From Pseudomonadota bacterium (GTDB lineage Bacteria > Pseudomonadota > Gammaproteobacteria > Acidiferrobacterales > Acidiferrobacteraceae), in NCBI GenBank assembly GCA_021819125.1, contig JAKARW010000002.1, positions 23,377-87,376 on the forward strand: a DNA stretch of 64,000 nt, in the 5' to 3' direction. Positions within the stretch are counted from its first letter, which is position 1, and the number at the start of each line of letters is the position of its first letter. Shown piece by piece: positions 41,889 through 56,612 of this stretch. The notes under the pieces are model-generated. The model made no database searches. It had not been told where the DNA came from and saw only the letters and a list, made by a program, of their open reading frames with translations. The position numbers and the translations under genes were made by a program.

Positions 41889-43564
41889 GCTCCATCCGTC
41901 ACCGCGCCACGACTCGCAGACGAGACGAGGCGCGCATATTTGGCCAAGGTGCCGCGTGTATAGCGCGGCGCGGGGGGCGCCCAGAGCGCGCGGCGGCGCG
42001 TAAGCTCCTCCTCCGGCACGTCGAGTTGCAAGACACGCCGCTCGGCGTCGATGATCACCGTGTCGCCATCGGCCACCAATGCGATCGTGCCGCCGACTGC
42101 GGCCTCCGGCGCCACATGTCCCACCACCATACCATAAGTGCCGCCCGAGAAACGCCCATCAGTGACAAGCCCCACGAGGTCGCCTAGGCCCTGCCCGACG
42201 AGCGCCGCGGTGGGCGAGAGCATTTCGCGCATTCCGGGGCCGCCGCGCGGCCCCTCGTAGCGGATCACGACCACGTCGCCGGCCGCTATGCGCCGCTCCA
42301 TGATGGCGGCCATGCACGCCTCCTCGGAATCGAACACGCGCGCCGGACCGGTAATCCTCGGGGCCTTGACGCCGCTGGTCTTGGCAAGCGCCCCTTCGCA
42401 GGCGAGATTACCCTTAAGAATCGCCAAATGGCCGTGCGTATAGACCGGCCGCTCCCAGGGCCGGATGACATCCTGATCGGCACGAGGATGCTCGGGCACG
42501 TCTTGCAGGACCTCGGCGATCGTCTGCCCGGTCACGGTCAGGGCGTCACCGTGCAAAAGACCATGCGCGAGCAGCATTTTCATCACCTGCGGCACCCCGC
42601 CCGCGCGATGCAGATCGGTGGCGACATAGCGGCCGGACGGCTTGAGATCACACAACACCGGCACGCGGTGGCTGAAGGCATCGAAGTCGTCTAGCGTCAG
42701 TTCCACACCGGCGGCGTGCGCGATCGCCGGCAAGTGGATGACGGCGTTGGTGGAACCGCCCAACGCCATGAGCACCGCAAGCCCGTTTTCGAAGGCCTTG
42801 CGCGTAAGGATCGCGCGCGGCAACCGCCGCGCCTTTATGGCCTCGACCAGCACCCTTGCCGACTGCGCGGCGCTGTCGGCCTTTTCGGCATCCTCGGCGG
42901 TCATGGTCGCGGAGTACGGCAGGCTCATGCCCATGGCCTCGAATAGCGCCGACATGGTGTTGGCGGTGTACATGCCGCCGCACGACCCGGCGCCTGGGCA
43001 GGCCTTGCGTTCGATCTCGTGCAATTCCCGGTCATCGATCGTGCCGGCGATATGCGCGCCGACCGCCTCGAAGACACTTATGATGGTAAGGTCGCGCCCG
43101 TCATGATGGCCGGGCTTGATCGTGCCCCCGTAGACAAACACCGCCGGGATATTGAGCCGCGCGATGGCGATCATGGCGCCCGGCATGTTCTTGTCGCAAC
43201 CGCCGAAGGCCAACACCCCATCCATGCTCTGGCCGGCGCAAACGGTCTCTATCGAATCGGCTATAACCTCGCGCGACACGAGGGAATATTTCATGCCTTC
43301 GGTCCCCATGGCAATGCCATCCGAAATGGTAATAGTCCCGAACATCTGGGGCATGGCCCCGGCCGCGGCCAAAGCCGCCTCGGCGCGCGCGGCAAGAGGC
43401 CCAATCCCCATGTTGCACGGCGTGATCGTGCTGTGGGCGTTGGCCACGCCCACAATCGGCTTTTCGAAATCGTCATCGTCGAACCCGGTGGCGCGCAACA
43501 GCGCGCGGTTGGGGGCGCGTTTTGTGCCGGTCGTCACGACACGGCTTTTGTGGTTGTCAGACAT
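41885..43564 (-). CDS. ilvD: dihydroxy-acid dehydratase
   Basis: [42 protein letters not shown]. Confidence 0.95.
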
Positions 43565-43662
43565 TAAGGTCCTCCTTAAACGATGGTTGAGATCGATGCG
43601 GCTTGCGCCAGACGGGTGTGGGCGGACGAACCGCCGCCCGCCGGCCCAATAGGGGTGTCGGA

Positions 43663-44769
43663 TCAGTCGGCCAGACGCCACGCGACCACCTCCCCGGCGC
43701 GCAACGGCACGAACACATCGGCGCCGGCGGCCCTCGTGGATGGGACTTGCCATGGCTCCTTTATAAGCGTGACGCGATCTTGATTACGTGGCAGCCGGTA
43801 AAAGTCCGGCCCGTTGCAACTTGCGAACCCCTCCAGGCGATCGAGCGCATGGGCACCCTCGAAGACCTCGGCATAGAGCTCTAGCGCCGCGTGCGCGGTA
43901 TAGATCCCGGCGCACCCGCAAGACGACTCCTTGGCGTGCCGAGGGTGCGGCGCGCTGTCGGTTCCGAGGAAGAATTTCCGACTGCCACCGGTGGCGGCGG
44001 CCACCAGCGCGGCGCGATGATGGGCACGCTTTAGAAGCGGCAGACAGTAATGATGGGGCCGCAGACCGCCTGTAAACATCGCGTTGCGATCGAGCAGCAA
44101 GTGGTGGGCGGTGATCGTCGCGGCCAAGGTGTCAGGACTTGCGCTTACGAACTCGACCGCGGCACGGGTCGTGATGTGCTCCAAAACCATGCGCAGGCCC
44201 GGGAACGCACGCGTAAGCGGCAGCAAGTGGCGCTCGAGAAACACCGCTTCGCGATCGAAGGCATCCACCGCGGGGTCCGTGACCTCGCCGTGCAAGAGCA
44301 AAGGGACATCGAGACGTTCCATGGCCGCCAGCACCGGATAACAACGCGTAAGGTCGCGCACACCCTGCGCGGCATGGGTGGTGGCGCCAGCCGGATAATA
44401 CTTGACGGCGAGCACGGCTTTGGCGGCATGCGCCCGGGCAATCTCGTGAGGGCGCATGGCCTCGGTGAGAAAGAGCGTCATCAAAGGTTGAAAAGATGCG
44501 CCCGCGGGCAACGCCGACAGGATCCGCGCGCGATAGGCGAGCGCTTCGGCGACCGTGCGCACCGGCGGATCGAGGTTGGGCATGACAATGGCCCGGGCGA
44601 AGCGGCGTGCGGTGTCTGGCACCACCGCCGCCAACATCGCCCCATCCCGCAGATGAACATGCCAATCGTCGGGGCGCACAAGGCTTATGTGCGTGACCGG
44701 CGCCGGATGTCTTGGGCCATCGGCCAAAGCCACGGGGCGCGGCGCGCCATCGTCCGCGCACTCGCTCAC
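43663..44769 (-). CDS. pyrC: dihydroorotase
   Basis: [31 protein letters not shown]. Confidence 0.94.
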
Positions 44770-44951
44770 CGGGCCCTCCGGACGGCGCGCCAGGGGGCAA
44801 GACCGCCTGACGATATCCGCCCGATACGGCCGGGCGGGCGATCACAGGTCGCCGGTCGCGCCGTGTCGGTCACAGCCGTCGTGGCAGGCCACGGGGCGCA
44901 AGACGCGGCGAATACTATGGCGCTGAGGCGCAAGGTCTTCACGGGGCGGCT

Positions 44952-45836
44952 TTAAGGGTTGCAGATATCGCAACGGGCCGGATCGGCCTGCGCGCGGTCT
45001 TTCAGGTCACGCGTCACCCGGTGCCCGCACTTAAGACAACCATGGACCTCGGCGCGCGTCTCGCGCGTGGGCGCCCCACACGCTTGACAGGGAAGCCCGG
45101 CGATCACCTCCACCGTCCAGAACCCCGGGGTGCGGCAAACAGGGCAGAGCGATGCCAGACGTCGGCCGAGGTCGACTGCGGCGAGCCGGATATTGATGAG
45201 GCGTGTGGGGTTGGCATAGGCGCGTAGATCCACTTCCACGAACACGCGCCCGCTCGGCGACTGCGCGGCGGCCTCCTCATAGGCGGCCTTGAACGCCGAC
45301 CAATCCGCGATCCCCTTGCGGATACGGGGATCCCCATCGTGGTCGGGCCTTAAGACCAGATAATGCTCGGGAAAGCGCACCGTGTGCGCAAACCGCTCGG
45401 CATCCTCCCAATTCGCCGCCAGGATCTGGGCGCTGTTGGCCCGACCCTGCGCCATGCCGACCACCTCGAGTCCCAGCAAATCATCCAGAAAGACCAGGAA
45501 TTCGATATTCCAGGGAAACATCCCCGCAAACGGATCGCGGGTGAAAGATCCTTCGCTGGCAAGCCCGACCGAAAGCCCCGAGAGCTCCATGCCGATCCGC
45601 GCCTTGTGGCGGGCCGCCTCGATCTGCGTGCCGGCACGCGGGATGTCACGCGTGAATGTCCCGAGGAGATCGGTGTCATAGCCTGCCACCCGCTCGACAA
45701 GGCAACCCACGAATCCCTCGAGGACCGGACCTACGATCCGCTCCTTGCCGTGCTGGGTCAGAAACGCCGCACGCTGTCCCCGGTAGAGGCTGCGGGTCGA
45801 CGCGGCATAAGCCGCCATAGGCCCGTTTAGGCTCAT
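44952..45836 (-). CDS. DUF6671-like protein with C-terminal zinc ribbons
   Basis: four CxxC motifs (CPVC, CQAC, CLKC, CDIC); 4-nt overlap with DabA-like gene. Confidence 0.75.
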   Translation of the reverse strand: MSLNGPMAAYAASTRSLYRGQRAAFLTQHGKERIVGPVLEGFVGCLVERVAGYDTDLLGTFTRDIPRAGTQIEAARHKARIGMELSGLSVGLASEGSFTRDPFAGMFPWNIEFLVFLDDLLGLEVVGMAQGRANSAQILAANWEDAERFAHTVRFPEHYLVLRPDHDGDPRIRKGIADWSAFKAAYEEAAAQSPSGRVFVEVDLRAYANPTRLINIRLAAVDLGRRLASLCPVCRTPGFWTVEVIAGLPCQACGAPTRETRAEVHGCLKCGHRVTRDLKDRAQADPARCDICNP

Positions 45837-48112
45837 GATACCTGCTCCCATCGCCCGTCACGGGCGCGCAAGAAGAGGCCGGGGGCCTCGCTGTCCATCT
45901 GAAACAAAAACAGCCATCCATGCTCCACTACGCTATGCACGATCTCGTGGCGCGCCAACACCTCGTCCACCCGCGCGCGGGGCGCCTCCACGAACGCGTT
46001 GAGACGCAGCGGCTCGTGGGCCCCACGCCGACTGTCAAAGAGCGACGGGATCGAAAACCCATTGTCCCGATCGCCGCCCGCGCCCTCCCACGCCCCAATG
46101 CATCCACCCACCCTGTCGTGCAGGGCCTTGTGGCCGCCGCCGAAGCGTTTAGGGTCGACCACGGAGGCGTAGTACCGCATGTTCATCCAATGGGCCGCCA
46201 TCATCGGTGCGGTCATGAGGTAGCGCAAAATCCGGAAATCCGTATCCCGGCGCCACTCGTAATCATGCAGGAACGCGCGGCCATCCAACGCCACGCCCTT
46301 CGTGCGCGCGCGCGGCGCCGCGATAAAAGCGGCATTGCCGATAAATTCAGACTCAACGGCGGCTTGCGCCGATTGCGGCATGCGCGCGCCGACCGGGGCG
46401 CTTACGGGGTCCGCCGCGCACACAGGCGAGACAGGCGCGCAAACACGCTCCGCGCGCGCGTGCCGGCTTGCCTCCTCCAGGGCCGCGCGCGTAGCCCGCA
46501 GATCCCAGGCGTGCGTCGCCTCCCATGGTCCCGTATCGAACAAGACGACTTCATCGTGCGTGCTATCGTAGCGCGCGGGCACGAAGCTCGTATCCGCCGG
46601 GATCACAATCCCTTCTGGCGCAAGACGGGTGCGTACAGCGCGATCATTCAGCAAGGCCGCCACCGTCCGTACGTCCATTTCGCTTGTCCACCGTCCGATG
46701 GACGATTCCGCGGCATGCGGCTTATAACCGGGAAGCCGACTGTGATCGATCAGTAATACCAGCCGCGCGAAGCCGTCGGTGAGCGACATGACGCGAAGAA
46801 ATCCCGAGGCCATGGCACTTTGATCGGCATCGGTGATGACCGATGCCTGCTCGGCGTCTGCGCCCGGGCGTGACGCATGCGCGGGTGGCGTGACAGGCCA
46901 AAAGGCTTCCATGAACGGATCGAATGGGGCATGGGCGTACGCGAGGCCGCAGAAACCGCCAAACCCGAGGGTCTGGGTCTGCGGCGCGATCGTCTCCAGG
47001 GCGCGACGAAAGACCTCGGCGCGATTATTCATGCAAAAGACCACCTGGACCGCGGCGCGGCCCTGCGAGCCAAGGCGGTCAGGCCGCTCGCCGCAAGCCG
47101 CCAGATCAGCGACGATGCGTCGGCGGTATCCGAGCTCGAGCGCGGTCTGGAGGACCGAGTCGATTTGGGCATCGGGCGTCATGCGCGCCGAATGGGTCGA
47201 CGGCAGGGCCGAGAGCGCCGCCTGCCAAGCGGCCTTGAGGCGCGGCTTCGGGGCCGCGCAAAAAACGATGAGTTCCCAGGCGAGCCGGATGGCGAGCAGA
47301 TCCTCGATGTCGGCGCGGCCGCCGTCGGCTGCGCGTCCCTGGCGCGTCTCCTGCGCGCGGGTCGCCCATCCCCCGATATCGAGAAGTGCGGCGTGGCAAT
47401 AGTCCGTGATATGGGCGCTGGGGACGGCCAACGTCTTTAGGACGAGTTCGATGGACTTGAGTGGTTGCCGGGGCAGCCGCCCGACGATATCCGCCACCCC
47501 CTTGAGCCCCATGGTCCGGGGGCTTGCATCGAGCCTTGCGAAATCACGCCACGCGTCGTAGAGGGGCTCATCGCGCCACGGCAGGGGCCATGAGGCCTGA
47601 CCGGGATCGAAGTAGGCGGCGGCGAACTGACTGATGCGTTCGACACAGAATGCCGCCCACGGCGTATCGGGGTCGATCCGCTGCAAGATATGCGACACAA
47701 GCGGCAGCCTCTGCACGGGCGGCGCATCGTCGTGCGCCAAGAGACTCGCGGCGGACTTTTCGTCGGATGGCAGACCATGCGCCTTCAAGGCCTCGGCTAT
47801 ATCGCCGCGCGTGACGCGGCCGCATGCGATCTGCTCCCGGTAATAGCGGCGTGGCATGGTAAGCGTGGACCCGGCTACCCGCGCCAAGATCGGGCCCGCT
47901 TTCTCGAAATCCACATGACGCAATCCGAAGTAGGGATTGACGGCCACCGACGCATCCTGCGTCCAAGCCGGCGCGAGCCTGTCACAGGCCTTGCGCACCG
48001 CGACGCGCCACGCGGACTCGCCGCAGGTGACCGGGACTCCATCGGTCCACCCATGATCCCCCGCCACACACCGTGGCCCATCGACCCGCGATGCCCCTAG
48101 GAAGCCATCCAT
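45833..48112 (-). CDS. DabA-like (DUF2309) protein, divergent active site
   Basis: NPYFGLRH N-term; VVFCMNNRAEVFRRALE; C-terminal GRAFLHDYEWRRD..LMTAPMMAAHWMNMRYYASVVD..HEPLRL. Confidence 0.85.
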   Translation of the reverse strand: MDGFLGASRVDGPRCVAGDHGWTDGVPVTCGESAWRVAVRKACDRLAPAWTQDASVAVNPYFGLRHVDFEKAGPILARVAGSTLTMPRRYYREQIACGRVTRGDIAEALKAHGLPSDEKSAASLLAHDDAPPVQRLPLVSHILQRIDPDTPWAAFCVERISQFAAAYFDPGQASWPLPWRDEPLYDAWRDFARLDASPRTMGLKGVADIVGRLPRQPLKSIELVLKTLAVPSAHITDYCHAALLDIGGWATRAQETRQGRAADGGRADIEDLLAIRLAWELIVFCAAPKPRLKAAWQAALSALPSTHSARMTPDAQIDSVLQTALELGYRRRIVADLAACGERPDRLGSQGRAAVQVVFCMNNRAEVFRRALETIAPQTQTLGFGGFCGLAYAHAPFDPFMEAFWPVTPPAHASRPGADAEQASVITDADQSAMASGFLRVMSLTDGFARLVLLIDHSRLPGYKPHAAESSIGRWTSEMDVRTVAALLNDRAVRTRLAPEGIVIPADTSFVPARYDSTHDEVVLFDTGPWEATHAWDLRATRAALEEASRHARAERVCAPVSPVCAADPVSAPVGARMPQSAQAAVESEFIGNAAFIAAPRARTKGVALDGRAFLHDYEWRRDTDFRILRYLMTAPMMAAHWMNMRYYASVVDPKRFGGGHKALHDRVGGCIGAWEGAGGDRDNGFSIPSLFDSRRGAHEPLRLNAFVEAPRARVDEVLARHEIVHSVVEHGWLFLFQMDSEAPGLFLRARDGRWEQVS

Positions 48113-48401
48113 GGCGCCCCCTTTTCCCTGCGGTGGCGCGCCGGGCGGACGACGCACGCCGCAAGGACTGCAAAGAACGTAGACACTGGCGCCCCCATCG
48201 ACCGCTGCGTTGTTCCTATAGGCGAGATCCTGGTCACGGGTTTGGCCCTCCGGCCGCACCGCCCATTGCGGCAAACGAGGATGTTAAAGACCTTTAAGAA
48301 TAAGCGACACTTAATATTAAAAATTATGAGGATTTACCGCGGTTAATTCCCGTTCGCGGCACGCCGGCCCAGACCTTGGGCCTTACCCCTCATCGCGGGC
48401 C

Positions 48402-49628
48402 TTACGCCCGATCGGGGACCAGGGCCGGCCGAAACGCCAAGGGCGCGATCTCTGGAATAAGGTCGACCATACGGTAATCGCCTTCGATGCGATCGGAGGC
48501 CACCGGCGCCAGACGCCGATCCATGAATCCGGTATAGGCCGGGTGCCTACGAAAGGCATCGACCGCCGGTGCCGAGGCAAGACGCGCCAGCAGGCAGTGG
48601 CGATACCGGCCGCCCTCACCTGCGACGTGGCCGACCTGAACGGAGCGCACCCCCGGGATGCCCGACAAAATCCGCTGCCCCTCGGTCATCAGGGCCTGCA
48701 ACGCCGGGGCATCCAGACGCGGCGCATCGTAAACGACGATATGCATGATGTTGTTCCACGGGCGGCACCGGTCGAGCACTTCCGCGGCGCGACCCGCCGA
48801 GCCCCATGCGCGCATGGGCGGCTCGAGCTGCGCGGCGATGCTTTCATGGATGCCATCCTTCAGGGCGCTGTAAGACGCATGACGATCGCCTCGTACGTTG
48901 GCCCGCAGCCGCTCGCTCGCCATGGCGCCCGGGGCCACGGAGCAGGAGATCTTGGCCACACCCAACATGATAAATCTACGGCATTGCTCATCGCCCAACC
49001 CCATCTCGCCTGAAATGACCAACGGTATCTTAAGCGCGGCATTGATCTCCTTGAGGCGCCCCCAGTCGAACCGCGACCTTCCTCGCCCCCGCACCATGTC
49101 TGCCGAAACGAGTAGGAAATCCACTTGGGTGCGCTCCACAAAACCCTTGGCCTCGGCCACGGTCGCATATTGAACGGCGCGCGGTGCGTGGCCTTCTGTG
49201 GCGTCGCCATCGGGCGCATAGGCCAATTCGCCTTCGACCGGCACCCCGCAGGCATGTGCCGCATCCACGATCGCGCGTGTGCGGTCGATATGACGAAAGA
49301 GCGATTCCTGAAGGGCGCGCGCGACGATGCCGTTGGCGCCCAGGCGGACACCGCGTACCACGGAATCCCTGTCGGTCCCGCCATCGAAGTGGATCGCCAC
49401 GGGAACGGTGGCGCGTGCCGCGGCGGCCTCCACGGCGGCCATGACCCAGGCGAAGACAGGACTTTGAGACGGCGGCTCGGCGACACTGAGGATGACCGGC
49501 GCGCGCGCCGATTCGGCCGCCGCCAACACCGCCGGCAGGAAATCCAGCTCCGCGAGATCGAACGCGCCCACCGCATAGCCGTTCTCGTAAGCGTGCGTGA
49601 GCATGTCCTTCATGTCCACCAACGGCAT
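48402..49628 (-). CDS. class II aldolase-like protein fused to Dabb-like domain
   Basis: VDMKDMLTHAYENGYAVGAFDLAELDF.., C-terminal HIVVYDAPRL..GIPGVRSVQVG..HPAYTGFM. Confidence 0.82.
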   Translation of the reverse strand: MPLVDMKDMLTHAYENGYAVGAFDLAELDFLPAVLAAAESARAPVILSVAEPPSQSPVFAWVMAAVEAAAARATVPVAIHFDGGTDRDSVVRGVRLGANGIVARALQESLFRHIDRTRAIVDAAHACGVPVEGELAYAPDGDATEGHAPRAVQYATVAEAKGFVERTQVDFLLVSADMVRGRGRSRFDWGRLKEINAALKIPLVISGEMGLGDEQCRRFIMLGVAKISCSVAPGAMASERLRANVRGDRHASYSALKDGIHESIAAQLEPPMRAWGSAGRAAEVLDRCRPWNNIMHIVVYDAPRLDAPALQALMTEGQRILSGIPGVRSVQVGHVAGEGGRYRHCLLARLASAPAVDAFRRHPAYTGFMDRRLAPVASDRIEGDYRMVDLIPEIAPLAFRPALVPDRA

Positions 49629-49982
49629 AGCAAGTCCTCAAGACATCGATGACGGGAGTCGAAAGCCGCCGCGACTTGCCCCGCGCGCGATGGCCGAAAG
49701 CCCCCGCGCCCCGCGCCAAAAAACGCGGCTTTGAATGGGCCGGGGTGTCCGACCCGAAGATAGGACGCGGCCCCAAAGGCAGCGCTCTTTGGTTCGCGCG
49801 CGCCCGTGGCGCACGGGCGGTGCCCCATCAAGGGGTTACCGATCCCGCCGCATAGACCCAAGACCCCGTCGCTTTGGTCCCGGCTCATGTGGCAGGAGAC
49901 CCCGTTAGGCGTGATCGAATTTAGAGAGTAATATGCTTAAAGAGAAGTCAGTCTTAATTAGCGTAGCTATTTATCGTAGTTA

Positions 49983-50969
49983 ATGATTAACCATTGGACG
50001 CTCCAGCAACTTCGGCTCTTCGAGGCGGTCGCCCGTCACCGCAGCTACACGCGCGCGGCCGAGGAGCTGTGCCTGACGCAACCCGCGGTCCACATCCAGG
50101 TGCGCAGGCTCGAGGAGATCGTAGGCCTGCCGCTGATCGAGCGGGTCGGCAAGAAGCTTTTGCTGACGCGCGCGGGCGAAGAGGTGTACGCCGCCACGGT
50201 CGCGGTGATGGATCAGTTGCGCGCGCTCACAGGCGAGATCGCGGACATGAAGGGCAAGGTGGCAGGCCCCCTGAAGATGGCCGTGGTCACCTCCGCCAAG
50301 TTCTTCATGCCGCATTTCCTCGGACTTTTCATACAGGAATATCCCGATGTGGCGCCCCAGCTCATAGTCACGAACCGCGCGCGCGTGCTGGAGCGCCTGA
50401 CGGAAAATCTCGATGACTTCGTCATCATGGGACAGATCCCAAACGATATGGACCTCACGGTCCGGCCGTTCATGGACAACCTGCTGGTGGTCGTGGCGCA
50501 CCCAGACCACCCGTGGGCGGACCGCGTCGATATCCCCCTGGCGGAGATCGTGCGCGAACGTTTCTTGTTGCGCGAGGCCGGTTCCGGGACACGCATGTCG
50601 GCCGCGCAGATGTTCGCCGAACAGGGGCTCGACGTGAAGCCCTACATGGAGCTTGGGTCGAGCGAGGCCATAAAACAGGCGATCATGGCCGGTCTTGGGA
50701 TCTCGGTGCTGGCCTTAAGCAGCCTGGAACTCGAATTGGAGGCGAGACGTCTCGTCATCCTGGATGTCGCAGGCTTCCCCTTGCATAGGACATGGTACGC
50801 GGTCCATCTGCAAGGCAAGCATCTGGGCCTCACCGCCAGCGTGTTCCTGGACTTTCTGGTCAAGGAGGGCCCCGACCTCGGGGTGCGCAAGGGCTGGGTG
50901 GCCGAACTTCACCCCGCCCATCGCCCGCGCGAGGCGCGCAAAAAACTCGGAAAGACGCGTACCCCGTGA
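49983..50969 (+). CDS. cbbR: LysR-family regulator, CbbR-like
   Basis: TLQQLRLFEAVARHRSYTRAAEELCLTQPAVHIQVRRLEEIVGLPLIE. Confidence 0.88.
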   Translation: MINHWTLQQLRLFEAVARHRSYTRAAEELCLTQPAVHIQVRRLEEIVGLPLIERVGKKLLLTRAGEEVYAATVAVMDQLRALTGEIADMKGKVAGPLKMAVVTSAKFFMPHFLGLFIQEYPDVAPQLIVTNRARVLERLTENLDDFVIMGQIPNDMDLTVRPFMDNLLVVVAHPDHPWADRVDIPLAEIVRERFLLREAGSGTRMSAAQMFAEQGLDVKPYMELGSSEAIKQAIMAGLGISVLALSSLELELEARRLVILDVAGFPLHRTWYAVHLQGKHLGLTASVFLDFLVKEGPDLGVRKGWVAELHPAHRPREARKKLGKTRTP

Positions 50970-51010
50970 CGCAAGGCCACCTGCCGCCGGACGGTCTTTG
51001 GCGCCTGCGC

Positions 51011-52117
51011 CTATCGCGCGCCCGGCTCCGGCCATTTCTGGCGCTTTTTCAAGATAGCCTCCACCAAGCCAATGGCGCGCTCGAAACTTGTCGCCACGTG
51101 CCGAAAGCGAATGCGCGCACCGGGGCCTAGCATGCTCTGAAAACGCGGCCCGACCCGTTCGTCGGGATCGTACACACGAAACATCTCAAGCGGATTATCC
51201 CCGACCGACCCCAGCGCATACAGGTAGCGAAAGAACAGATCCGACTCCGGCAATGAGTAGCCGATCACGAAAATGTGCTGGGCATCCGACAACTCCTGGG
51301 CCGCCTGGGCCCATACCCGGGTGAACTCGCTTTGGTAGCCGTACTTGTTCCAGGTCGGCGGCACGATCACCGGATGCTCGCCCGATGGACGGTCGAGGAT
51401 ATGCGCCGTGGTGCAGAGCCGGAACACGCCCTCCGCGTGCCTGCGAAACACGATGCCTGCCGACTCCGCCAACAAGCGATCCATCCTCCAGGGCACCACC
51501 TCTCCGGTCGCCCCTGCCACCCAGTTGAGCGAGCCGTGCAGCTTGAGAAGCGGGATACCGGCGGGCGGATCGGAGTCGTCCAGGCAATAGCGCACCGGAA
51601 TTCCCCCTTGATGCAAAGCGTAATCCAAAGCCAGGTCATAATTGAACGTGAGGATGGCGTGACGGTATGGGGGTGATGCCGCCTGGCTCTCGCGCAGGAG
51701 CTCCACAAACCGGGGGTAGGGGTCGGGCGCCACCGGCAGATCCCCGGCGCGTTTTTCGTTGAAGTTGAGCGTCGACTCCAGGGTGTAGGCGATGACGGTC
51801 TTCAAGGCCGCGATCAAGGCATCGATCTCGCTCACTCCGTAGCCTGGCATTCGGCCAAGAAGCCGGGCCATCTCAAAGGCCGCGAACACACTCTCGACAT
51901 TGGTGATATCGAGATCCTGCGCCTTCGAATGCACGGCCTGGAGTTTACCGATCGCCTCGAAGACACGGGCGAAATCCCCCGCGCGGCCCTGCACGGCCCC
52001 GGTAAACAAAAGCCGACGCGCCTTGTCTAGAAAGTTGCTCATGACCGGCGCGCCGCCCTGCTGCGACGCCCCCGCCCCGAGAATGAATACGACATCAGCC
52101 ACTTGTAACCTCCGCAC
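51011..52117 (-). CDS. SIR2-domain protein
   Basis: VVFILGAGASQQGGAPVMSNFLDKA..; AILTFNYDLALDYAL; KLHGSLNW. Confidence 0.82.
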   Translation of the reverse strand: MRRLQVADVVFILGAGASQQGGAPVMSNFLDKARRLLFTGAVQGRAGDFARVFEAIGKLQAVHSKAQDLDITNVESVFAAFEMARLLGRMPGYGVSEIDALIAALKTVIAYTLESTLNFNEKRAGDLPVAPDPYPRFVELLRESQAASPPYRHAILTFNYDLALDYALHQGGIPVRYCLDDSDPPAGIPLLKLHGSLNWVAGATGEVVPWRMDRLLAESAGIVFRRHAEGVFRLCTTAHILDRPSGEHPVIVPPTWNKYGYQSEFTRVWAQAAQELSDAQHIFVIGYSLPESDLFFRYLYALGSVGDNPLEMFRVYDPDERVGPRFQSMLGPGARIRFRHVATSFERAIGLVEAILKKRQKWPEPGAR

Positions 52118-52426
52118 CTGCCGGCAGACCGCCTCTCGCCGTTACATTACTACGAAACTCCGGCCATGTTCCACGGCCGGCGCCCTCAAGCAAAACATAA
52201 ATGGTTTCGACGCATCGAGACCGATATAAATAATCGAGATTATACGGGCCATGCGTGGTGGTACAAATACTAGACTCATAGAGTCTGGTAAAGTTTAATA
52301 ATTGCCAATATTAAGTGTTCTTAATGGCGCCACATCCGTTACATTGCCTCGCATTCACGCCGTCTGGGTTCGAGTTTAAAGACGGCAATAATAAATCACG
52401 CGGGCGCCAAAGGCGCGCCATTACGA

Positions 52427-53395
52427 ATGGGGGGCTTTGTGGATTCTACGAATGGCGTCGTGACCTATGGCTTTCACGGGGTGACGGATACTGAAAAGGT
52501 CCTCCTCCAGTCCATGATCGAGCGGATATCCCGCAGTCTGCCAGGTCCGGTGGCGCAAGTGCCGGCACGCGACGCACAGCTCGTGTTCTTCGATGGGCCA
52601 GCGCCCCACCCAGACAAGACCGAAAGGCGGCTTGTGCGTGTGGTCCGGGACCCAGGCGCGCGGCGGTTCTCGGGCGGTCTGCGCATGCCGCCTCACGTCA
52701 CGGATCTCCTCGATATCTTCACGGAATTCGTGGAGCAGGGGGCCTATGCGCAGACCCGGTGCACGGCCATGCGGTCGCTGGTCCGCTCGCTCCACGACCT
52801 GTTCCGAACCCGCGGCGCGCCGCACGCGCTCATCGACAAAGACGGCACGAGCCTCGTCTTGTACCCGGCCGATCGGCAGTTCTCGTGGTCGGATTCCGAA
52901 AACACACGAGCCCTGCCCGAATTCTTCCAATCGCACCGGCTCCCGGGACTCGACCTGCGTCCATGGGACGCGTCCGAACCCGGAGAGGGCCGGGAGCGGC
53001 GCGGCATTGAGCCCCTATTTTGGCACATGGGGCTTGCGCACGCGCGTTGCGGGCTCTTGCCATGGGTCGGGCGTGACGACCCCCTCAAGATGCGCGCGTG
53101 GCCCTATCTCACGGCCCAAGGACCGGCCACCGCGACCCGTCTTGCCACCGTCTTGCGCACACGACCACAAAGCGTGGCGGCCCTGGCGGATGCCGCTTGC
53201 GTCCCCGAGACCGATGCCGTGGCATTCGCCAATGCCGCGCTTTTGTGCGGATTCGTGGTGACCGCGAAGTCGACGGACACACAGGCCTTGGCGCACCGAC
53301 CGAGCGCCCCTGACGCGGACTTAAGGGCCTTGGGCACGGCGCGACGGCCCGGCATTCTGGGCGCCATCCGCAACGCCCTGGGGATACGTTCGTGA
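52427..53395 (+). CDS. hypothetical protein upstream of GTPase/roadblock genes
   Basis: 322-aa ORF overlapping GTPase gene by 4 nt. Confidence 0.7.
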   Translation: MGGFVDSTNGVVTYGFHGVTDTEKVLLQSMIERISRSLPGPVAQVPARDAQLVFFDGPAPHPDKTERRLVRVVRDPGARRFSGGLRMPPHVTDLLDIFTEFVEQGAYAQTRCTAMRSLVRSLHDLFRTRGAPHALIDKDGTSLVLYPADRQFSWSDSENTRALPEFFQSHRLPGLDLRPWDASEPGEGRERRGIEPLFWHMGLAHARCGLLPWVGRDDPLKMRAWPYLTAQGPATATRLATVLRTRPQSVAALADAACVPETDAVAFANAALLCGFVVTAKSTDTQALAHRPSAPDADLRALGTARRPGILGAIRNALGIRS

Positions 53396-53985
53396 GCGAG
53401 GAACTGAAGCTTTTGTTCGCGGGCGCGATGGGCGCGGGCAAGACCACCGCGATACGCGCGATCAGCGAAATCGCGCCCATAACAACCGAGGCTGCCAACA
53501 GTGACCACACGGAATGCAACAAAGAGGAGACCACCGTGGCCATGGATTATGGCGAGATCACGTTGGCGACAGGCGAGAAGCTGCGGCTCTATGGGACCCC
53601 GGGCCAGGCGCGCTTTCAGTTCATGTGGCCGATCCTTGCCACCGGGGCCCTTGGCGTGGTGATCCTGATCGACAACTCACGCCCCGACCCCTTGGCGGAC
53701 CTCGAGCTTTACCTCGATGCCTTTCGCGCGCTCGCCGATGGCGGCGCCGCGGTCGTGGGCGTCGGACGCATGGACCGCTGCCCACAGCCATCGCTCGAGG
53801 CCTACGCCGAACGGTTGGCGGCGCTCGATGTCGTGGTTCCGATCGTGCCCGCCGACGTGCGCCGGCGCGACGAGGTCCTCACAATGCTCGAAATTCTTCT
53901 CCAACAGCTCGAGGCGACATGGGCCTATGACGAGGCCATCGGCGACGGCCTGTCGGGTCACGGATTAATGGGAGCGCATCCATGA
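53392..53985 (+). CDS. small Ras-like GTPase (MglA/COG2229-like)
   Basis: LLFAGAMGAGKTTAIRAIS; LYGTPGQARF; overlaps next gene by 4 nt. Confidence 0.88.
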   Translation: MSEELKLLFAGAMGAGKTTAIRAISEIAPITTEAANSDHTECNKEETTVAMDYGEITLATGEKLRLYGTPGQARFQFMWPILATGALGVVILIDNSRPDPLADLELYLDAFRALADGGAAVVGVGRMDRCPQPSLEAYAERLAALDVVVPIVPADVRRRDEVLTMLEILLQQLEATWAYDEAIGDGLSGHGLMGAHP

Positions 53986-54410
53986 ACGCGCGCGCCATTG
54001 CGCCAGACGTGATCGCGGCCTTTGATGAGGAGATTCGTAAGCTGCATGCCCGGGTGGCGGGCGTCATCGGGTGCGTGCTCGCCACCACGGACGGACGACG
54101 AGTATCGGCGGTGGTCGACAACGAGGCCGATCCGCAGCGGGTGTCGGCAATGGTGGGATCGATCGTGGCGCTCGGCGAGACCATCGGCCGCGAAGTCATG
54201 ATCGGGCGCACGCAGTTTGTCGCGGTGAGCGCGGTGGACGGCATGATCCTGCTCCAGAGGGTACCGGCCAAGCGCGATCTGCTGGTCGTGGGGACGTTGG
54301 CGCGGCGCCATACCAATCTCGGGATTCTTCTGCACGAAACCGGGATCGCCGCCGAGGCCGCGGCCCGGATTCTCGACGACTGGTTGGGGCGCGACTTGCA
54401 GCCCGCTTGA
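53982..54410 (+). CDS. roadblock/LC7-domain protein
   Basis: VAGVIGCVLATTDGRRVSAVVDNEADPQRVSAMVGSIVALGETIGRE. Confidence 0.82.
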   Translation: MNARAIAPDVIAAFDEEIRKLHARVAGVIGCVLATTDGRRVSAVVDNEADPQRVSAMVGSIVALGETIGREVMIGRTQFVAVSAVDGMILLQRVPAKRDLLVVGTLARRHTNLGILLHETGIAAEAAARILDDWLGRDLQPA

Positions 54411-54485
54411 TGGCTGCCGGATTGACAGCAACACCGCGAGGCACCTCTCGCGGCTACGAGACTCAACAGAGGATGGATATAAGTC

Positions 54486-54845
54486 ATGGCAAAAGTGGAT
54501 CTGAGCAGTATTCAGGATATCGACGGGTTTATCGCAGCGGCGCTCGGCGATTCGAGTAGCGGCATGCTGTTGGCGAGGACCGGAAACCAGGCGGTCGACC
54601 TGGATCTGGCGATAGCCGGCAATTCGGAGGTGGTGAACACGAAACGCGCACTGGTGGCGCGCCTGAATCTCGACGACAAGATCGAGGATATCCTTATTAC
54701 GCTTGGCAAGCAGTACCACCTGATCCGGCCCCTGGAACGTAACGACCAGCTGTTCCTCTATCTGATGCTGGATCGCGCCAAGGCCAATCTCGCCATGGCC
54801 CGCCATGAATTGAGGGTCTACGAAAAGACCCTGGATTTTTCTTAA
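54486..54845 (+). CDS. second roadblock/LC7-like protein
   Basis: IQDIDGFIAAALGDSSSGMLLA..EDILITLGKQYHLIRPL..LFLYLMLDRAKANLAMARHEL. Confidence 0.78.
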   Translation: MAKVDLSSIQDIDGFIAAALGDSSSGMLLARTGNQAVDLDLAIAGNSEVVNTKRALVARLNLDDKIEDILITLGKQYHLIRPLERNDQLFLYLMLDRAKANLAMARHELRVYEKTLDFS

Positions 54846-55112
54846 AGCAGGTGCGGGGACCTTGCCCAAACGCGGCCATGGGGGCCGCTATGGCGGGCCA
54901 CGGCTGACTCAAGGTGTCGCACCAGGCAAGACGGGGTCTTTGTGAAAGACATCATACTTATTGCCTCACCAAAACCCGCGGGCCGCATGCCCAAAGACCG
55001 TCCATGACACGCAGCGCAGCCCAGCCGCTTATCCTGCCGTACAGGGGCCTCGCCGATAAGGCGAATGTCGTACGGCGTGCGCCGGGGCCTATCGCCATTG
55101 AGAGATCACACC

Positions 55113-56612
55113 ATGACCGTACGCTGGCATGAAACCCCCCTCCTCGATCCCGGCATGTTTTATGACTATGAACGCGCGATCCTGGCACAGGCATCGACGG
55201 GCGATGTGCCACTCGGCTTTGCGCGCCTTGGGCCTTGCGCGCTGGTCGGGGTCTTCGATGATCCGGATCGTTCGCTCAGGCGCTCGTTTGTCGATGGCCA
55301 CCTGCCGATCGTGCGCCGGCGCACCGGCGGCGGCAGTCTTTATGTCGACCAGGGGACGACCCTCATGGTCGCGGCCCTACCGCGGGTCCTGGTAGCGCAA
55401 CATGCGCTGACCGCGATAATCGCACTTGTCGGCGAAGTGATTGCCGAGGCGTTGCGCAGCCAGGGTATGAGTGCGACATTTACCGCCCCTAATGACATCA
55501 CAGACGACGGCCGCAAAAGGGGTAGTGTGTTCGCCGTGCGGTGTGGCGAAGAGATACTCATCGAGGCGGCTCTCTTGTTTGCGGTCGATATCGACTCCCT
55601 GATGAAGACCATCAAGCTGCCGCTCGAGAAATTGTCGGCGGCGGGATTGTTGGCCGCCGCCCAGCGGTTTGCCCCCATCGGTGGCCGAGAGCCCTCGGCG
55701 GTGGCGGCGCGCATCTATCCTGCGATCGCCGCGGCGCTTGCCACGCGCCTGACGATGGGCGTGGCGGTCCAAACGCCACCCGCCGTCCGTATCGAACCCC
55801 CGCCCCCCGGCAGGACCGGCCTCATTCCCGACGTCAGCGCTTTTCTAAAGACCCAGGGGGGCGTCTTGTATCTCGACATCCTACTCGACGGTGAGAGCGT
55901 GCGCGCCGCGCGCGTCAACGGTGGGGTCCAGTGCGCGGGGGCCACCGACTTGGAGCAACTGGCCAACGCCATGACCGGGGTGCGCCTCGATGATCTGGAA
56001 GCCGCCGCCTTGGCCGCGGCGCCAAGGGACACCCTTGGCTTCGACCACAGGGATGTTGGCTACCTCGCGCGGCTTTGTGTGGAGCGTCAGCTTCTGGGCG
56101 AGCGCCTGGGTATCCCGGGGGGCGCCGAGCGCGTGACGCTCTACAGCCCGCGCCGCGACCAAGGGTTCGCGGATCTGCTCGCCGATGTGGGGGCCCTGTT
56201 GCTGCCCTACTGCGCCAAGCCCGCCTGGTGCAAATGGCGCCATCGTGATGGCTGCCCGGAATGTGGACAATGCGCCGTGGGAGAGGCCTATCGCCTCGGG
56301 CGGGAACGCGACCTACCCGTGACCACGATCACCCGCTACGAGCATCTGCACATGGTGTTGGCGCAGCTGCGCGCCACGGGAATACGCACGTTTTTGGGCG
56401 TCTGCTGTACGGAATTCTTTCTCAAACGCGACTATGCCTTCGTAGAGGCCGGCCTGGGGGCCATATTCATCGATATCGGCGGCGACACCTGTTACGCGCT
56501 GCGCGCCGAAGAGTCGGCGTATCGCGGCGAGTTTACAGCCGAGGCGACACTCGATTCCCGATTGCTGGATCAGGTGTTGCGCCTGAGCGACACGCATGAC
56601 CCATCGATTTAG
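55113..56612 (+). CDS. lipoate-protein ligase-like domain fused to DUF116
   Basis: VRRRTGGGSLYVDQGTT LplA motif; C-terminal YCAKPAWCKWRHRDGCPECGQCAVGEA.., GVCCTEFF. Confidence 0.8.
   Translation: MTVRWHETPLLDPGMFYDYERAILAQASTGDVPLGFARLGPCALVGVFDDPDRSLRRSFVDGHLPIVRRRTGGGSLYVDQGTTLMVAALPRVLVAQHALTAIIALVGEVIAEALRSQGMSATFTAPNDITDDGRKRGSVFAVRCGEEILIEAALLFAVDIDSLMKTIKLPLEKLSAAGLLAAAQRFAPIGGREPSAVAARIYPAIAAALATRLTMGVAVQTPPAVRIEPPPPGRTGLIPDVSAFLKTQGGVLYLDILLDGESVRAARVNGGVQCAGATDLEQLANAMTGVRLDDLEAAALAAAPRDTLGFDHRDVGYLARLCVERQLLGERLGIPGGAERVTLYSPRRDQGFADLLADVGALLLPYCAKPAWCKWRHRDGCPECGQCAVGEAYRLGRERDLPVTTITRYEHLHMVLAQLRATGIRTFLGVCCTEFFLKRDYAFVEAGLGAIFIDIGGDTCYALRAEESAYRGEFTAEATLDSRLLDQVLRLSDTHDPSI

Follow-up and report, generated by a model that had tools for sequence, protein, structure and literature searches.

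A zinc-less aldolase–Dabb protein encoded beside a DabA-like gene in Acidiferrobacter

Results

The aldolase–Dabb gene and its neighbours

The window, by which we mean the whole stretch of 64,000 nucleotides that was analysed, comes from a genome (G000) that belongs to Acidiferrobacter, an acid-loving sulfur bacterium. It encodes a protein in which a class II aldolase domain and a C-terminal Dabb domain are joined in one chain, the arrangement that defines the aldolase–Dabb family (Table 1). An earlier note, made from the sequence alone, had proposed a reading frame with these two domains at 48402-49628; this is exact on the minus strand, and Pfam assigns the domains to PF01116 and PF07876. 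Homology to the PF01116 barrel extends over residues 4–280, whilst all of the NCBIfam aldolase models score far under their own cut-offs for this protein. Class II FBP aldolases were also the top Foldseek matches of an AlphaFold model, but the confidence of that model, which was built from four sequences, is low (mean pLDDT 56); it served for the fold match only and is too poor to place alternative ligands. In a plasmid collection no record spanned 80% of the aldolase–Dabb query, and the top matches were ordinary aldolases without the Dabb part.

Table 1. Features of the aldolase–Dabb locus (positions in the window)
Feature	Position	Strand	Details and basis
Aldolase–Dabb gene, zinc site lost	48402..49628	−	408 aa, ATG start
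Class II aldolase domain, residues 4–280	48789..49619	−	Pfam PF01116, E 1.8e-42; Foldseek
Dabb domain, residues 295–385	48474..48746	−	Pfam PF07876, E 4.2e-7
H80-F-D82-G83-G84, equivalent of HxDHG; Gly83 replaces first zinc His	49377..49391	−	Alignments
R104 and L106, equivalents of conserved D104/S106 (D-x-S strand)	49311..49319	−	Alignments
E132-x-E134, kept	49227..49235	−	Alignments
R180, replaces second zinc His (MVRGRG)	49089..49091	−	Alignments
S206, replaces third zinc His (ISGEMG)	49011..49013	−	Alignments
S228...V231, replace conserved substrate-binding Asn/Thr	48936..48947	−	Alignments
DabA-like protein, zinc site lost; probable start inside ORF	45833..48274	−	Pfam PF10070, E 5.7e-161, two pieces
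C-M-N-N-R, replaces C-I-D-V-R (Cys351/Asp353/Arg355 of DabA2)	47021..47035	−	Alignment; roles from PMC13144422
Equivalent of GHGS...LDCGACGG region; second zinc Cys (Cys539) absent	46688..46756	−	Alignment with intact DabA
DUF6671 protein, next gene downstream, position conserved	44952..45851	−	Pfam and locus comparison
Divergent LysR regulator, CbbR-like	49983..50969	+	Best NCBIfam match CbbR

The adjacent downstream gene encodes a clear homologue of DabA (PF10070), about 43–45% identical to the intact DabA of the same genus. In the structure of DAB2, Cys351, His524 and Cys539 are the zinc ligands and Asp353 and Arg355 form a dyad; under CO2 limitation, growth was impaired by D353N and likewise by C539A (PMC13144422). 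The adjacent protein does not have this full set of residues: the Cys, the Arg and a His align, the Asp is replaced by Asn and Cys539 is absent. Given the zinc roles in DAB2, its C-M-N-N-R sequence thus amounts to the equivalent of D353N in a protein that also lacks Cys539. Two other full-length DabA proteins are encoded elsewhere, and intact DabA, Fba and RuBisCO genes are likewise located elsewhere. The short canonical DabA has both FCIDVRSE and GHGS...LDCGAC, with every ligand present, in all 11 congeners checked. We also observed, at L061:10741-14076, a DabA fused in one chain to a C-terminal P-II domain.

On the other side of the aldolase–Dabb gene lies the divergent LysR regulator, whose match to the NCBIfam CbbR model, at 232 bits, is under the model cut-off of 450; it is kept at the same place in nine Acidiferrobacter genomes, G000 included. 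The link to RuBisCO or DIC-uptake genes runs through the DabA-like and CbbR-like neighbours, RuBisCO itself not being adjacent. Nothing was returned when the divergent region was scanned for promoters and terminators, or when 43000-56000 was scanned with Rfam. Further along the window (53392-54410) come a small GTPase-like gene (PF03029) and, after it, one whose sequence by eye only resembles Roadblock/LC7, an MglA/MglB-like order.

Residues lost from the aldolase pocket

Ligand positions were read by alignment with the solved aldolases 7ncc, 3q94 and 1rv8 and with intact relatives. The roles of single residues (zinc, the DHAP-binding Asn228, the Thr) we take to be those of established class II aldolase knowledge; the substitutions themselves come from the alignments. 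As the earlier note had claimed, all three zinc-binding histidines are absent, their places being taken by G83, R180 and S206, and D82 and the E-x-E pair (E132, E134) are present. Loss from the pocket goes further than the note had stated, since S228, V231, R104 and L106 are also changes from the conserved residues. The note had in addition suggested looking for a second, intact fba in the genome, and a canonical Fba is found at G000:C69. A sequencing artefact is excluded, as the zinc-less state recurs with other residues in at least nine congeneric genomes, including the single-contig G004 and the four-contig G008.

The aldolase–Dabb family in Gammaproteobacteria

Among 387 gammaproteobacterial genomes, sampled evenly, 55 encode relatives of the aldolase–Dabb protein, as do a few other genomes of the phylum; the E. 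coli-like matches elsewhere in the phylum have no Dabb part. A RuBisCO large chain is encoded in 54 of the 55 genomes, compared with 124 of the 332 others (Fisher p ~1e-19, a value that is indicative only, given that the genomes are related and that the RuBisCO model may take in RuBisCO-like proteins). At many loci the gene immediately follows cbbL-cbbS-cbbX, or lies a few kb downstream of RuBisCO with its small subunit; some loci adjoin dabA/dabB, and for about two dozen neither a RuBisCO nor a dab neighbour was seen. Just upstream of the gene in many RuBisCO loci (L050:9000-9383, L046, L153, L157, L158, L172 and L186) there is a conserved ORF of about 115–170 aa; the L050 copy had no Pfam match when searched, and in the genome of the window a homologue is located near Fba. 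In G032 (L062:9143-9973, after cbbL-cbbS-cbbX) the aldolase part is cut to a fragment and the Dabb domain is intact.

We aligned 71 members of the family, each of at least 340 aa. All three zinc histidines are intact in 43 members and zinc ligands are lost in 20, whilst one clade of eight carries the coordinated changes H80Q, E132V and H180Q (or R). This last subclade is linked to RuBisCO (L157, L158, L170, L181 and L184, from G310, G367, G126b, G417 and G197, and others), and as read from the alignment its zinc site is remodelled rather than erased. For H180Q variants of the H. pylori aldolase, which appeared among the structure matches, there are structures in complex with FBP and with DHAP (5ud3, 5ud2). 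One genome, G026, has both an intact and a zinc-less aldolase–Dabb copy (L053:9428-10573). Given that most of the other family members have an intact zinc site and a link to RuBisCO, the zinc-less state of the window protein appears to be derived from a zinc-intact ancestor, with relocation of the gene. Parsimony gave 5–6 changes, but trees that group Acidiferrobacter with G036 or with G218/G309 remained acceptable under AU tests, so we do not claim a number of zinc losses.

Variation and selection within Acidiferrobacter

A homologue 70% identical to the window protein is present in Acidiferrobacter, and open aldolase–Dabb reading frames were found in ten Acidiferrobacter genomes and in G014. 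The four-contig genome G008 illustrates the arrangement: cbbR-cbbL-cbbS-cbbX is followed by an oppositely oriented gene, the slot after cbbX lacks aldolase–Dabb, and the only copy is divergent from a CbbR-like LysR gene and followed by the DabA-like and then the DUF6671 gene. A canonical dabB-dabA pair lies ~10–13 kb from it. The DabA paralogue is missing beside the aldolase–Dabb gene in G012 and G014, and a complex of the two proteins is therefore not obligatory. The 99% complete genome G009 has only a frame-broken N-terminal remnant (L063:9228-9437, between an intact dabA and the DUF6671 gene) in which the zinc histidine is also gone (HFESG), and no copy was detected in the congeners G001, G003 and G010, which are drafts of 85–94% completeness.

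Across the ten Acidiferrobacter proteins, position 83 is G, E, Q, R or C, position 180 is R, Q, Y or H and position 206 is S, A, P, R, Y or H; with replacements as different as these, no new motif has taken over the zinc site. One of the three zinc histidines is kept in each of G007, G012 and G013. None of the ten proteins keeps the equivalent of N228 or of T231, and the residue at 82, Asp in the window protein, is E, G or H in four of the ten. Other positions are stable: E132 and E134 are nearly invariant, and H113 and C229 are conserved in nine of the ten. About 50 positions, such as W61, R112, W189, M221 and P270, are conserved in the clade and rare in intact members, shared ancestry alone accounting for part of these. 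At 12 catalytic or ligand sites 37% of the family residues are retained, compared with 73% at 89 other conserved sites of the aldolase domain (Mann-Whitney p 6e-4). Residue loss in the aldolase domain is thus concentrated in the pocket.

Mean pairwise dN/dS over eight Acidiferrobacter species is 0.29 for aldolase–Dabb; the DabA-like gene has a mean of 0.32, compared with 0.10 for CbbR, 0.09 for IlvD, 0.15 for DUF6671 and 0.13 for canonical DabA. For aldolase–Dabb the value is 0.20–0.31 in close pairs and 0.2–0.3 for both domains. The aldolase–Dabb and DabA-like genes are under purifying selection, with ratios well below 1. Nevertheless, the value for aldolase–Dabb is ~3 times that of its neighbours CbbR and IlvD, which shows that constraint on it is relaxed, and the DabA-like gene is likewise about threefold less constrained than the neighbours.

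Discussion

These data suggest that the window protein is probably a pseudoenzyme, an aldolase–Dabb protein without catalysis that has been retained for a structural or regulatory function in the uptake of inorganic carbon. The aldolase barrel could have been retained as an oligomeric frame that bears the Dabb domain and contacts a partner, and the protein would then act as a structural or regulatory component of inorganic-carbon uptake under the control of CbbR. The dead DabA-like protein next door is a candidate for that partner, and a possible co-worker. The non-aldolase role suggested in the earlier note is now well supported, as zinc, acid/base and substrate residues are variably lost under purifying selection whilst an intact Fba is present in the same genome.

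The main rival explanation is slow gene loss: the gene became dispensable after relocation and is drifting towards a pseudogene, with the pocket decaying first. We regard this as unlikely, but it has to be taken seriously. A threefold rise in dN/dS over the neighbours, catalytic positions whose replacements vary between species, the broken remnant in G009, the three congeners without a detected copy and the parallel decay of the adjacent DabA paralogue are all as it would predict. It fits less well with reading frames that remain open in ten Acidiferrobacter genomes and in G014, with dN/dS far from 1 in both domains and with the conservation of residues specific to the clade. Furthermore, purely neutral decay should not strike catalytic sites more than other conserved sites, which is the pattern observed.

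It is improbable that the protein is still an enzyme that works with a different metal site, or without metal, through D82, E132 and E134 and new residues such as H113 and C229. The near invariance of E132 and E134 and the conservation of H113 and C229 are in keeping with such a reaction, and the RuBisCO-linked subclade with H80Q, E132V and H180Q-type changes indicates that the family tolerates remodelled sites. However, residue 82 varies among the close relatives, H113 and C229 are the only conserved new ligand-type His/Cys residues of the aldolase domain, and the substrate-binding N228 and T231 have gone from each of the ten Acidiferrobacter proteins. Improbable as well is a sensor in which the aldolase domain binds a sugar phosphate of the Calvin cycle and passes the signal on by way of the Dabb domain or CbbR: the conserved place opposite a CbbR-like regulator would suit it and pseudoenzymes often keep ligand binding, but the positions for phosphate and DHAP binding have either gone or vary. 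The sugar-phosphate sensing raised in the earlier note is weakened in the same way, since the contacts to the ketose phosphate (N228, T231 and part of the GG-S/T loop) have disappeared as well; scaffolding or regulation would fit better.

Returning to the non-catalytic pseudoenzyme that we favour, a more specific and rather speculative version is that the dead aldolase–Dabb and dead DabA proteins form a module whose two members, under CbbR control, together regulate or assemble the active DAB CO2-hydration complex or tie it to the demand of the Calvin cycle. More generally, many autotrophs encode an aldolase–Dabb protein that accompanies RuBisCO and has attracted little notice, and this protein can be kept even after its catalytic site has been given up. 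This raises the claim that part of its job in carbon fixation is something other than aldol cleavage. The automated label 'fructose-bisphosphate aldolase' is probably wrong for the Acidiferrobacter branch. In the literature searched, of which coverage was incomplete, neither an aldolase–Dabb fusion nor a dead class II aldolase was described, nor was a retained but site-less class II aldolase–Dabb protein beside a site-less DabA.

Aldolase barrels, Dabb domains and pseudoenzymes are all kinds that are already known, and the window protein can be compared with three systems. With class II aldolases of the FbaA/KbaY type (PF01116; 7ncc, 3q94, 1rv8) it shares ~30% identity over the whole barrel, the same order of secondary structure and the E-x-E motif, but it is without the zinc histidines and the DHAP-binding Asn, it carries an extra Dabb domain, and the catalytic Asp varies across its clade. 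The zinc-intact aldolase–Dabb proteins of RuBisCO operons (L046, L047, L050 and L057) are clear homologues, with the same two domains and ~40–50% identity. They keep HxDHG (QxDHA in L057), VHG, IHGG(T/S)G and KIN..T, which the window protein does not, and their genes directly follow cbbX or other RuBisCO genes, unlike the gene in the window. The third comparison is with the DabA/DAB2 complex (PF10070; PMC13144422), of which the adjacent gene encodes a DabA homologue, although one without the equivalents of Asp353 and Cys539 and with no DabB directly beside it.
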